Of a stretch of DNA of 64,000 nucleotides, positions 44,395 through 51,911 are shown one piece after another. The stretch's first letter is position 1. Every line of letters begins with the position of its first letter. The notes beneath the pieces were generated by a model that saw only the letters and a program-made list of their open reading frames with translations, was not told the origin of the DNA and made no database searches. A program made the translations under genes and the position numbers. The DNA is from a bacterium (GTDB taxonomy: Bacteria > SZUA-182 > DTGQ01): assembly GCA_040755755.1 (NCBI GenBank), contig JBFLZW010000061.1:62001-126000 (forward strand), written 5' to 3'.

Positions 44395-45156
44395 ATGAGT
44401 ATGGACATAAAAATAAAAATAGAGAACCTCAGAGCCTTTTTTAAAAAAAATGAGGTCTTAAAGGGGATAAACCTGGAGATTTATCGAAATACTATTACCG
44501 GTATCATGGGGCCTGCCGGTAGTGGAAAATCAACTCTTATTTCGGTGATCAACAGGATGATAAGCTTTGAAGATGGGTTTTCGGTTGAAGGGAAAATATT
44601 TATTGATAATGAAAATATCCTGGAAGAGAAAGTAAATGAAGTAAATTTGAGAAGACGGGTAGGGACAGTGTTTGCTGTTCCCATCCCGCTGCCCCGTTCT
44701 ATTTACGAAAATGTGGCCTATGGCCCCAGGCTTAAGGGTATTAATAAAAAGCTCCAACTGAACGAAATAGTGAGAGAAAGCCTGAAAAAAGCCTTTCTCT
44801 GGGAAGAAGTCAAAGACAGACTTTTAACATCTGCCTTGAAACTCTCTGGAGGGCAGCAACAAAGGCTCTGTTTGGCCAGGACTCTGGCCCTGAAACCCGA
44901 AATAATCCTTTTAGACGAACCTTGTTCAGGCTTGGACCCGATATCCACAGCCAAGATTGAAGAAGCCTTAAATATGTTGAAACAGGAATATACAATAATC
45001 CTGGTCTCGAACAACACCAAGCAGATTGCCAGGTCTACCGATTACACAATCTTTTTTTATATGGGAGAGCTGATCGAATATTCCAGTACGGAAAAAATGT
45101 TTACCAATCCTTCTCTGAAAAAGACTGAAGATTATATCTTGGGAAGATTCGGCTGA
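44395..45156 (+). CDS. PstB-like ATPase 1, degenerate Q-loop and switch but intact signature
   Basis: A 253-residue PstB homologue. Walker A GPAGSGKS (39-46), signature LSGGQ (150-154) and Walker B with Glu175 (LLDEPCSGLDP) are intact. The Q-loop reads VFAVPIPLP, with Ala94 in place of the Gln seen in VFQRPNPFP, and the switch region reads LVSNN, with Asn206 in place of His. The ATP site built on its own Walker A is therefore expected to be weak or inactive. It keeps the family ending EDYILGRFG. The following pstB starts at the last base of its stop codon region (TGATGG). It probably pairs with that protein instead of forming a homodimer. Confidence 0.93.
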   Translation: MSMDIKIKIENLRAFFKKNEVLKGINLEIYRNTITGIMGPAGSGKSTLISVINRMISFEDGFSVEGKIFIDNENILEEKVNEVNLRRRVGTVFAVPIPLPRSIYENVAYGPRLKGINKKLQLNEIVRESLKKAFLWEEVKDRLLTSALKLSGGQQQRLCLARTLALKPEIILLDEPCSGLDPISTAKIEEALNMLKQEYTIILVSNNTKQIARSTDYTIFFYMGELIEYSSTEKMFTNPSLKKTEDYILGRFG

Positions 45157-45905
45157 TGGAAAACATTGCTCTGAAAACAAAAGATCTGGATCTCTATTAT
45201 GGCAAATTTCATGCTTTGAAAAAGATAAATTTTTCTGTCTATGAGAAAAGCATTACTGCCTTAATAGGTCCTTCCGGCTGCGGCAAATCCACGCTTCTGC
45301 GCTGCTTTAATCGGCTTAATGAATTGATTGACGAGGTGAAGATAACCGGCCTTTTGGAAATTAACGGCAAAAGTATCAAAGATATTGATTTAGTTGAATT
45401 AAGACGCAAAGTCGGTATGGTTTTTCAGCGTCCTAATCCCTTCCCCTTATCAGTCTACGATAATATGGTCTATGGGTTGAAAGTACACGGTGAAAATAAG
45501 AAAAAATATAAAGATGCGGTAGAAAAATGCCTCATGGCTGTCGGTCTCCTGGATGAGCTGAAAGATAAACTCAACACCCCGGCTCTTAACCTTTCGGAAG
45601 AAACAAAACAACGCCTGTGCATCGCTCGTCTTCTCACCATTGAGCCGGAAATAATACTTCTGGATGAGCCATGTTCTGCTCTTGATCCCATTGCCACTCT
45701 GAGGGTTGAAGAGCTGATGATAGAGCTTAAGAAAGATTACACCATCATTATCGTTACTCATAACATGCAACAGGCTGCCAGGGTTTCGGATTATACCGGT
45801 TTTATGCTCTTGGGCGAATTGATAGAGTTCGATGAAACGTCAAAGATTTTCACCTCACCAAAAGATGAACGGACAGAAGGATACATTACCGGGAGATTCG
45901 GATAA
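45156..45905 (+). CDS. pstB: PstB-like ATPase 2, intact Q-loop and switch but degenerate signature
   Basis: A 249-residue PstB. Walker A GPSGCGKS (38-45), Q-loop Gln91 in VFQRPNPFP, Walker B Glu171 in LLDEPCSALDP and switch His202 in VTHNMQQAARVSD are all canonical. The signature is LSEET (146-150) where LSGGQ is expected. The losses are exactly complementary to PstB-like 1. In an ABC dimer each ATP site uses the Walker A of one subunit and the signature of the other, so the pair would give one fully canonical and one degenerate site. One-base overlap with the preceding gene supports 1:1 synthesis. Confidence 0.95.
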   Translation: MENIALKTKDLDLYYGKFHALKKINFSVYEKSITALIGPSGCGKSTLLRCFNRLNELIDEVKITGLLEINGKSIKDIDLVELRRKVGMVFQRPNPFPLSVYDNMVYGLKVHGENKKKYKDAVEKCLMAVGLLDELKDKLNTPALNLSEETKQRLCIARLLTIEPEIILLDEPCSALDPIATLRVEELMIELKKDYTIIIVTHNMQQAARVSDYTGFMLLGELIEFDETSKIFTSPKDERTEGYITGRFG

Positions 45906-48700: not shown

Positions 48701-50440
48701 ATGGAGATCAAGATTGCCAAAACTGCCGGTTTCTGTACGGGTGTCCAGCGGGCGATGAATATCCTTCTGGATACAGCCCGTCTGGGAGACCCGCCGATTT
48801 ATACCTTTGGACCGCTCATCCATAACCCGCAGGTCATAGCCCTGCTTGAGAGCCGGGGAATTACCGCTTTGTCGGATCCTGACTCCGCTCCTTCCGGCAC
48901 TCTGGTTATCCGGGCGCACGGCATTGCGCCAAAGACCAGGCAGTTTTTGAAAAAAAAGGGATTCAAGCTCTGCGACGCTACCTGCCCTCATGTGGCTCAG
49001 GTGCAATCCATCGTCAAATCCCACAGCCGCAGGGGGTACCATGTCATCATCATCGGTGATAAGGGGCATGCCGAGGTGACCGGCATTCTGGGTTTTGCGC
49101 AAAACCGGGGGACCGTGGTCAGCAGCCTGCCGGAAATTGATCTTTTGCCGAATATGGACCAGGTCTGCGTGGTAGCACAAACCACCCAGAATGTCGAGGA
49201 TTTCCAGCGGATCGCGGATAAAATCCGCAGCCGCTTTCCCCAGGCCGAAATCTTCAATACCATCTGCTCCTCGACCCAAAAGCGGCAGGATGAAGCCATG
49301 CAGATAGCCCAGCAGGTCGAAGCCATGGTCATCGTGGGCGGGAAAAACAGCGCCAATACCATCCGCCTGGCCAATATGGTCCGCGCTCTCGGCAAACCCA
49401 CCTTTCATATCGAGGTCCCGAAGGAACTGCCGGTTAAAGAGCTTGAAAAGTTCGACCGTATCGGCGTGACAGCCGGAGCATCCACTCCCAACTGGATCAT
49501 CGACGGGGTAGTGGAAAAGCTGAATTCCATCAGGCAGCGCAAGGCCAATTTTCTCATGCGCCTCCTGCTTCGAATGTTCCAGTTTCTGGATAGCAGCGAC
49601 CTTTTTGTAGCCATCGGTGCTTTCAGCATCAGTTATGCAGCCAGCCTCCTGCAGGGAATCGATCCGGATTTTCCCCTGCTGATCATTCCCGCCCTGTACG
49701 TGTTTGCCATGTATCTTGTCAACCACCTGATAGACCGGCACGACCCCGAAGGTCGTGATCCGAACATACTGCACGGGATATCCCGCTACACTGCTCTGCG
49801 CCTCGCGCTGGCCCTTGTTTCGGCTGCTCTGGCCCTCTCGCTCTCCCTGCATCTGGGTTTTTATCCATTTCTGTTTCTTCTCCTGGCCAGTATAGCCGGT
49901 ATTATTTACAGTATTCCGCTGATTCCCCACAGGTGGAAGGTTTATGTCCAGTTCAGACGGCTGAAAGACATTCCGGCCTCCAAGGATATCTTCCTGGCTG
50001 CATCCTGGGCGAGTGTCGCCGTTGGGATTCCACTCCTCTATGGGGTGGATTCAGCAGGAATTGATACTGCGGTCTGCTTTATTTTTATCGCCACCCTGGT
50101 TTTTATCCGCTCCGTGCTGCAGGATATTCGCAATATCCAGGCAGATCGGATTGTGGGCAGGGAAACCCTGCCGATAATTCTCGGCCAGAAGCGGATTGAG
50201 CGGCTTTTGTTTGCCATTTCCCTGCCGTCGCTTGCTCTTCTGACCGCAGCCGCATATTTCGGCTGGACTACTTCGCTGGGATTTGCTCTTTCCCTGTGCA
50301 TACTTTTTACCTGGATCTTTATGTTTCTTTCTCACCGCAACGCGCTCCCGAAAGGGATCGCATCCAAGTTGACTATTGACAGCAATTTCATTGTGAGCGG
50401 CCTTGTAGCCATGTTCTGGAAAATTTTTCATTACCATTAA
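48701..50440 (+). CDS. IspH (HMB-PP reductase) - UbiA prenyltransferase fusion
   Basis: A 579-residue two-domain protein. Residues 1-285 are a complete IspH: Cys12 in GFCTGV, Cys in CDATCPHV and Cys in NTICSSTQKRQ hold the 4Fe-4S cluster, with RAHG, GHAEVTG (catalytic Glu) and VAQTTQN also present. This enzyme makes IPP and DMAPP in the MEP pathway. Residues 300-579 are a membrane UbiA-type prenyltransferase with eight or so helices and two Asp-rich motifs: NHLIDRHDPEGRD and DIRNIQADRIVGRETLPIILG. UbiA enzymes move a prenyl chain onto a ring acceptor. The fusion would link isoprenoid supply with its use at the membrane. Frame and spacing show a single uninterrupted gene. Confidence 0.9.
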   Translation: MEIKIAKTAGFCTGVQRAMNILLDTARLGDPPIYTFGPLIHNPQVIALLESRGITALSDPDSAPSGTLVIRAHGIAPKTRQFLKKKGFKLCDATCPHVAQVQSIVKSHSRRGYHVIIIGDKGHAEVTGILGFAQNRGTVVSSLPEIDLLPNMDQVCVVAQTTQNVEDFQRIADKIRSRFPQAEIFNTICSSTQKRQDEAMQIAQQVEAMVIVGGKNSANTIRLANMVRALGKPTFHIEVPKELPVKELEKFDRIGVTAGASTPNWIIDGVVEKLNSIRQRKANFLMRLLLRMFQFLDSSDLFVAIGAFSISYAASLLQGIDPDFPLLIIPALYVFAMYLVNHLIDRHDPEGRDPNILHGISRYTALRLALALVSAALALSLSLHLGFYPFLFLLLASIAGIIYSIPLIPHRWKVYVQFRRLKDIPASKDIFLAASWASVAVGIPLLYGVDSAGIDTAVCFIFIATLVFIRSVLQDIRNIQADRIVGRETLPIILGQKRIERLLFAISLPSLALLTAAAYFGWTTSLGFALSLCILFTWIFMFLSHRNALPKGIASKLTIDSNFIVSGLVAMFWKIFHYH

Positions 50441-50453
50441 AGGAGTTACTCGT

Positions 50454-51911
50454 ATGGAGCCACTTTCTGACATCATCAACGGATTGCCCAATTTCTGCGG
50501 ATATGAATCATCGGTCGAAGAGACCATGTCCCGCAGCCTGCCGGTCTTTCTCGATCGCACGCCGGTAATTCTCAGCCAGGTCGAGTCATCGTTCGGTATT
50601 GCCCTTCATATGCACCAGCCGCTGATCCCGGCAGGGGGACCAAACCTTAAAAATGCAGCCATTATTGGCAATCTTCAGTATATGATGGAAAATCAGCACA
50701 TTCACGATAATCACAATGCCCCGGTTTTTGCCCGATGTTATGCCCGCATGGCCGATTTCATCAAGGAACTGGTCGATGAGGGCAAAAGTCCCCGGGTGAT
50801 GCTGGACTACTCCGGCAACCTTTTCTATGGGCTCCGTCAGATGGGCCGGGGTGATATTCTGGAGAAGTTTAAAAACGTCATGTCCCGGGAGCCTTACAGC
50901 CGCTGCATCGAATGGCTGGGAACCATGTGGTCCCATGCCGTGGCTTCCTCTACACCGCCTCCGGATCTCAAACTGCACATCCAGGCATGGCAGCAGCACT
51001 TTGCCTCCATCTTCGGCTGGGATGCCCTGGCCAGGGTCAGGGGATTTTCACCCCCGGAGATGCATCTTCCGATCCATCCCGATGTCTGCCATGAATACGT
51101 CAAGACTCTGAAAGCCTGCGGGTTTCGCTGGCTCATGGTTCAGGAGCACACCGTCGAGAACCTGGACGGCGGCCGTATCAGAAATCCTCATGTTCCTCAC
51201 CTTCTGACAGCCAGAAATTCCCGGGGCGAGGAGGTATCCATGACCGCCCTGGTAAAGACCAAGGGGTCTGATACCAAGCTGGTGGCACAGATGCAGCCGT
51301 ATGCTGAAGCCAGGGGGCTTCGTCGGCAGGAGTTTGGAGGAAAAAGCATCCCGCCTTTTGTCCTTCAGATCGGAGATGGGGAAAACGGCGGGGTGATGAT
51401 GAACGAATTCCCGGAAGCTTTCAAGAGTGCCTTCCGACAGATCGGCACATCAGGCACTGTCAGCCTGTGCGCCAGCGAGTATCTTGAGCTTCTTGAGGCC
51501 GAAGGAATCGATGTTGAAAAATCCGCCCTTCCCGTGCAGCCGGTGGGACAGAAGAGAATCTGGGACCGTGTTTCACATCCCAGTCCTGATGCGGTCAGAC
51601 AGGCCATTTCCGATCTCGAGAAACAGGACCGCAGCTTTCACCTGGATATGGGCTCCTGGACCAATGACCGCAGTTGGGTCAAGGGCTATGAAGGGGTTTT
51701 GAGTGCCATGGAGCACTTAAGTGCCCTGTTCCATCAGAAGATCGATCAGAATGCGGCTGTTGACAGGAAAAGCCCGGCCTATCAGCAGGCCCTTTTCTAC
51801 CTTCTGGTCAGCCAGACCAGTTGCTACCGCTACTGGGGACAGGGAGCATGGACTGACTACGGGCTTGAAATATGCCGAAGAGGCAGGGAATTTCTGGAAC
51901 GCGAGTTTTAA
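50454..51911 (+). CDS. Glycoside hydrolase family 57-like protein
   Basis: A 485-residue protein with GH57-like motifs: IALHMHQPLIPAG (first motif, HQP), a GTMWSHAVA segment, GFSPPEMHLP (position of the catalytic Glu) and LQIGDGENGGVMMNEFP (position of the acid Asp). GH57 enzymes cut or rearrange alpha-glucans. With the alpha-glucan phosphorylase at the end of the window this hints at glycogen metabolism, though the two genes are 11 kb apart. AAAGGAG precedes the ATG. It lies 13 bases behind the IspH-UbiA gene, so it is probably co-transcribed. Confidence 0.82.
   Translation: MEPLSDIINGLPNFCGYESSVEETMSRSLPVFLDRTPVILSQVESSFGIALHMHQPLIPAGGPNLKNAAIIGNLQYMMENQHIHDNHNAPVFARCYARMADFIKELVDEGKSPRVMLDYSGNLFYGLRQMGRGDILEKFKNVMSREPYSRCIEWLGTMWSHAVASSTPPPDLKLHIQAWQQHFASIFGWDALARVRGFSPPEMHLPIHPDVCHEYVKTLKACGFRWLMVQEHTVENLDGGRIRNPHVPHLLTARNSRGEEVSMTALVKTKGSDTKLVAQMQPYAEARGLRRQEFGGKSIPPFVLQIGDGENGGVMMNEFPEAFKSAFRQIGTSGTVSLCASEYLELLEAEGIDVEKSALPVQPVGQKRIWDRVSHPSPDAVRQAISDLEKQDRSFHLDMGSWTNDRSWVKGYEGVLSAMEHLSALFHQKIDQNAAVDRKSPAYQQALFYLLVSQTSCYRYWGQGAWTDYGLEICRRGREFLEREF

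Follow-up and report, generated by a model that had tools for sequence, protein, structure and literature searches.

The window, the whole stretch of 64,000 nucleotides of bacterial DNA analysed here, carries a gene in which IspH is followed, in frame, by a UbiA-fold membrane domain, and this gene is predicted to encode the only HMBPP reductase of its cell, on one chain with that domain. We favour, with a probability of roughly 55%, the reading that the protein combines an active IspH with a repurposed UbiA membrane module, which in most members of the family is probably not an ordinary Mg-dependent prenyltransferase, because residues needed by normal UbiA enzymes have usually been lost. IspH, which catalyses the final step of the isoprenoid pathway in bacteria, is of interest as a drug target and forms a bottleneck when isoprenoid production is engineered. 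Its attachment, as the sole copy, to a modified UbiA membrane domain in a widespread lineage raises the questions of why the supply of isoprenoids would be bound to the membrane and whether regulation takes place at that site.

The IspH-UbiA architecture itself is already known. In 2015, 47 such sequences were described, "all in sulfate-reducing bacteria", with a UbiA part that was given as of unknown function, assigned to the CDD type PT_UbiA_5 and credited with two DXXXD repeats (Rao et al, 2015; PMC4746011). Culturable carriers in that set include Desulfobacterium autotrophicum and Desulfobacca acetoxidans. Expression of the full-length protein failed in that study, and its authors proposed a local supply of IPP and DMAPP combined with membrane localisation (PMC4746011). 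In the open-access literature, we found no later work on these fusions, and one 2025 paper merely cites the 2015 study. New in our analysis are the wider spread of the fusion, the single-copy rule, the grouping of the fused proteins in one clade and the finding that most members have lost key UbiA residues.

Architecture and integrity of the fusion gene

The gene and its two halves are as follows:

48701–50440, + strand: ispH-ubiA fusion gene, 579 aa, with an ATG start and a TAA stop; three relatives share this in-frame fusion
48701–49540, + strand: IspH (LytB, HMBPP reductase) domain, residues 1–280; Pfam LYTB 2e-92, TIGR00216 above its cut-off, 3DNF 8e-66 and a fold match to IspH structures
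49541–50437, + strand: UbiA-fold membrane domain, residues 281–579, helical throughout in the AlphaFold2 model; Pfam UbiA 3.3e-15, Foldseek matches to AfUbiA (4TQ4/4TQ3) and ApUbiA (4OD4)

The open reading frames of the window place both domains in one uninterrupted frame without an internal stop. Pfam assigns LYTB to residues 3–274 (309.7 bits against a cut-off of 24.5) and UbiA to residues 326–542 (56.5 against 34.2 bits), an order of domains that corresponds to the IspH-UbiA fusions of Rao et al (2015), which likewise consist of IspH and a C-terminal UbiA-like domain and come from genomes with separate UbiA/MenA genes. Three further genomes of the same family contain the fusion in frames of 580–620 aa with 69–84% identity; a read or assembly error is therefore excluded, and a frameshift or chimera can be ruled out, the frame being common to four genomes of the family and to many lineages. 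The in-frame fusion put forward in the preliminary description is thus borne out, and the stop or frameshift that might have separated two genes was not found. The AlphaFold2 model (with 28 fusions) has a mean pLDDT of 84.9, falling below 50 in the loop after motif I (346–361), and Foldseek recovers two folds from it, IspH (3DNF, 3SZU) and UbiA (4TQ4, 4OD4). A plasmid search with the fusion returned matches to the IspH part only. The fusions of IspH with RPS1 (NF000907; PMC4746011) resemble the window protein in carrying a C-terminal domain fused to IspH, and its IspH half scores well against the IspH portion of their model; however, the window protein reaches 325 bits against a cut-off of 624 and features UbiA instead of S1 repeats.

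The IspH half is complete and is the only copy

The IspH half scores 279.8 bits against the NCBIfam model ispH_lytB (TIGR00216; cut-off 187.85). It contains the three [4Fe-4S] ligands C12, C95 and C189, as the preliminary description had noted, together with the other conserved active-site residues H41, H73, H123, E125, T161/T162, S217, N219 and S261, so that both the cluster cysteines and the substrate-binding His, Glu, Thr, Ser and Asn residues of IspH are present. Across 74 distinct fusions, sampled from what genome collections contain (mostly MAGs), the catalytic residues are invariant except for one gap (C12 is kept in 73) and one T/S change.

At 97.6% completeness, the genome of the window carries a single ispH, namely the fusion. 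Asked for in the preliminary description, a separate ispH was found neither there nor in any of the fusion-bearing genomes checked, all 45 of which have a single ispH gene (a complete fusion in 44). The remaining one, G321, an apparent unfused case, has its ispH and ubiA parts on two contigs and is uninformative because its ispH piece stops at the contig end. From the active-site residues and the sole-copy status, we infer that the IspH half works normally, as an active [4Fe-4S] enzyme that reduces HMBPP to IPP and DMAPP. The same genome has four other UbiA-family loci, including MqnP/UbiA-like and decaprenyl-phosphate phosphoribosyltransferase-like genes.

Distribution and origin of the fusion

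The fusion is widespread, which answers a further question of the preliminary description: it occurs in MAGs labelled, as deposited, Planctomycetota, Nitrospinota, Nitrospirota, Sumerlaeota, Zixiibacteriota, Fibrobacterota and "Deltaproteobacteria". In contrast to the 2015 set of 47 sequences from sulfate reducers with two DXXXD repeats, the present 74 fusions thus cover more labelled phyla and fall into one clade. A scan of the genome collection gave 29 loci, 28 of them fused and the remaining one cut by a contig end. When a profile of the UbiA half was searched against 290 genomes, the strongest 26 hits all lay in frames of 558–637 aa, and the best unfused hit (E 2e-13) was far weaker; these weaker unfused hits proved to be ordinary UbiA paralogs rather than members of the subfamily. 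An unfused member of the fused UbiA subfamily was found neither in the 290 genomes nor in the genome-collection scan. Within the small phylum of the window (9 genomes), the fusion is found in family f1, whereas in five genomes from other families the ispH frame is ordinary or cut by a contig end. A second small phylum has matches to the fused UbiA half in 15 of 17 genomes, and the frames concerned all measure 526–671 aa.

A tree of IspH domains, 56 of them fused and 34 unfused, places the fused domains on one side of a branch with an SH-aLRT of 100, and after the addition of 40 more IspHs, the fused set and the divergent fusions L180 and L186 group together at 99. The fused clade contains none of the 71 unfused IspHs that were sampled. 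The UbiA halves are likewise separated from 31 unfused paralogs at an SH-aLRT of 100, with long-branch warnings; the phylogeny, which the preliminary description had called for as a guide to the subfamily, thus sets the UbiA half apart as a clade of its own, distinct from the other UbiA-family genes of the genome. The single clade of fused IspHs fits a single origin of the fusion followed by spread, which would be the simplest account.

The unfused IspHs of the window's phylum fall on the opposite side of the tree from the fused ones, which suggests a horizontal gain or replacement by the window's family; we do not claim this, since an AU test does not reject a tree that keeps the phylum together (p 0.0955). 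As a separate observation, two genomes of one genus (G250 and G110; family f94, genus g105) differ in that one has the fusion, in a 590 aa frame, and the other an unfused ispH of 287 aa, pointing to a recent replacement of one ispH form by the other.

Key residues of the UbiA half are lost in most fusions

The UbiA half matches AfUbiA 4TQ4 in Foldseek with an E-value of 7.5e-06 and a probability of 1.00; a PDB profile search with this half gave no match, and the fold search alone succeeded. The best NCBIfam model is PRK13591, an uncharacterised prenyltransferase, at 3e-13 and far below its cut-off. In common with UbiA prenyltransferases (AfUbiA 4TQ3/4TQ4, ApUbiA 4OD4, MenA and the DGGGP synthase 6M31), the UbiA half has the fold, the conserved tyrosine and asparagine and the motif II aspartate; unlike them, it is joined to IspH, does not conserve the TM1 Arg/Lys or the motif I aspartates, and shares about 16–20% identity in fold alignments.

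GPP binding by AfUbiA is abolished when R22, N68, D72 or K146 is replaced by alanine, and is weakened 45-fold in D198A and 21-fold in D202A; E. coli MenA depends for its function on the residues equivalent to N68, D72, D198 and D202 and on the conserved tyrosine (PMC4106721). For comparison, the UbiA halves of 74 distinct fusions were aligned with 32 unfused paralogs taken from genomes that carry a fusion, and equivalence to AfUbiA residues was assigned by sequence alignment at about 20% identity. The positions concerned lie in the window at:

49589–49591, + strand: conserved Arg/Lys position of TM1 (treated as equivalent to AfUbiA R22, whose role is from PMC4106721), Asp297 in the window, from the alignment
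49721–49747, + strand: motif I remnant N341-HLI-D345-RHD-P349 (canonical NDxxDxxxD), with the N68 and D72 equivalents kept and the last Asp lost
49979–49987, + strand: S427-K428-D429 of the fusion-specific loop motif (R)RLKDIPxSKD, from the alignment
50132–50146, + strand: motif II N478-IQA-D482 (canonical DxxxD); the first Asp is Asn in the window's genus, the second is Asp in 74 of 74 fusions

By this alignment, the window protein lacks the basic TM1 residue of UbiA prenyltransferases. One of the 74 fusions has such a residue at the aligned column, compared with 29 of 31 unfused paralogs; the residue could be misplaced by one column in 30 fusions, and the counts become 31 of 74 and 30 of 31 when a shift of two columns is allowed. 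Motif I retains its full set of N, D and D in 2 of 74 fusions compared with 26 of 32 paralogs, and the window does not carry the complete NDxxDxxxD. We did not treat the missing last aspartate of motif I as decisive, because UBIAD1 also lacks it. Motif II has both aspartates in 57 of 74 fusions and reads NIQAD in the window. The preliminary description had credited the UbiA half with both Asp-rich motifs; the asparagine and first aspartate of motif I and the second aspartate of motif II are indeed there, whereas the last aspartate of motif I is gone and the first of motif II is an asparagine.

Counted residue by residue over the 74 fusions, N68 is retained in 54, D72 in 33, D198 in 57 and D202 in all; the four are intact together in 19, or in 31 when D and E count as equivalent. 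In the window, N341, D345 and D482 are retained, and the residue corresponding to D198 is Asn. Given that D198A is comparatively mild for GPP binding in AfUbiA, this change need not abolish binding. Mapped on the IspH tree, the states of D72 and D198 changed at least 10 times each, that of N68 at least four times and that of D202 never. Unlike in the 2015 description, key UbiA residues are thus lost in most fusions, and in the window, motif II has an Asp-to-Asn change; judged from the aligned residues, these losses qualify the "two DXXXD" description.

A short form of the fusion occurs in G101 (L186 / L220, contig C13, at about 104–105 kb), with a UbiA tail of 222 aa where about 297 is usual. 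The motif I region is absent from it, profile matches begin only with the motif II half, and its sister in the tree is a fusion of ordinary length, which makes it a useful natural variant for probing the role of the UbiA half.

The UbiA half is not junk but under purifying selection: compared with its closest relative, the window gene has a dN/dS of 0.128 in this half and of 0.090 in the IspH half. Among 303 columns ranked by conservation, D482 is first, K428 third, Y403 ninth, N341 twelfth and the D198 column fourteenth, and the D72 and R22 columns rank 91st and 176th. The cavity is therefore partly kept and partly free to drift, unlike in the paralogs. K428, in the fusion-specific loop, is Lys in 70 of 74 fusions and did not align with the lysine of the paralogs.

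Possible roles of the UbiA half

We propose that the UbiA half descends from a UbiA prenyltransferase and that remodelling has altered the site where it bound prenyl diphosphates: the TM1 Arg/Lys would have been lost, and in many lineages the motif I aspartate as well, whereas the last aspartate of motif II, a tyrosine, an asparagine and the fusion-specific lysine loop remain among the most conserved positions. It would now act as a repurposed anchoring module that keeps IspH at the cytoplasmic face of the membrane, with transferase activity probably lost in most lineages, and its conserved lysine loop and motif II may serve to bind a protein partner or else a ligand, either a lipid or a prenyl compound. 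Anchoring was one of two options in the preliminary description, and the analysis supports it, with tethering in vivo as the probable arrangement. The other, that new IPP and DMAPP pass to a membrane acceptor, loses ground for most members, because it assumes a working prenyltransferase and the key GPP-binding residues are often lost (basic residue at the R22 column in 1, N68 in 54 and D72 in 33 of 74). Against the repurposed module speak the fusions that keep all four key residues, strictly or with D/E swaps, the high conservation of several cavity residues, the comparatively mild effect of D198A, and the limits of the alignment (low identity, the possible shift at the TM1 column and the placing of K428).

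Those intact fusions also favour the "Rosetta stone" reading of 2015, by which the UbiA half functions as a prenyltransferase, its metal site being altered, and receives IPP and DMAPP locally from the adjoining IspH. Its published form (PMC4746011) agrees with the confirmed UbiA fold, the purifying selection and the conservation of Y403, N341, D482 and the D198 column. Still, the TM1 Arg/Lys is lost at the aligned column in 73 of 74 fusions and D72 in 41, the motif I region is missing in G101, and no acceptor-pathway neighbour recurs among the 48 flanking genes. In addition, the products of IspH are C5 units, and many enzymes of the UbiA family take longer prenyl chains made by a separate synthase. 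On balance, we hold this reading to be unlikely; the survey makes the 2015 proposal sharply testable, because it includes natural variants that carry or lack each of the key residues.

A further analogy is offered by UBIAD1, which senses GGpp and controls the stability of HMG-CoA reductase, an enzyme of the mevalonate pathway (PMC9314443), and whose complex with that enzyme (8DJK) is among the fold hits. By this analogy, the UbiA half might sense prenyl diphosphates or lipids and, by feedback, adjust IspH to the amounts of isoprenoids further down the pathway; the fusion would then be a bacterial equivalent on a single chain, one that arose once and serves many phyla as their only IspH. In both systems a UbiA-family protein is physically tied to an enzyme of isoprenoid supply, the cavity of the fusion is conserved but remodelled, and the sampled fused clade holds no unfused IspH. 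However, UBIAD1–HMGCR involves another enzyme and pathway and two chains, and UBIAD1 is an active MK-4 synthase; the resemblance is of a functional and hypothetical kind, regulation of IspH is itself putative, by analogy with UBIAD1, and the GPP-binding residues of AfUbiA are missing in many members. We consider such a sensor improbable. We give still less credence to a decaying UbiA half of which only the helices matter, a passive anchor to which the repeated changes at D72 and D198 and the shortened G101 form would lend themselves; its dN/dS lies close to that of the IspH half, D482 is kept in 74 and K428 in 70 of 74 fusions, and the presence of cavity residues among the most conserved columns is more than a purely passive anchor would need. 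The repurposed module, which may still bind a ligand or a partner, is the reading that we retain.

Neighbouring genes and other features of the window

A set of 48 flanking ORFs yielded just scattered families (for example response regulator 5, RNase HII 4, ParA/ParB 3, UbiD 2), and no acceptor pathway emerged among them. One neighbour is conserved in the family:

50454–51911, + strand: 485-aa ORF that starts 13 bases after the stop of the fusion; conserved in G002 and G001, no Pfam match

This ORF is probably co-transcribed with the fusion and lies outside the proposed mechanism; the sequence LHMHQPLIPAGG within it is reminiscent of GH57-type glycoside hydrolases, to which it may be related. 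A dispersed repeat like CTCTGTGTCTCTGTGGT occurs at window positions 756, 48522, 51955, 52009, 52127, 52135 and 52174, that is, with 7 matches (at most 3 mismatches) against 0.08 expected, several of which flank ispH-ubiA and its downstream neighbour.

Further upstream, two tandem PstB-like ABC ATPases (44395–45156 and 45156–45905, + strand) overlap by one base, downstream of a PstA-like permease. The first has the usual signature LSGGQ and the second a degenerate one, LSEET; because of this degenerate signature, the two proteins may function together as an asymmetric heterodimer.
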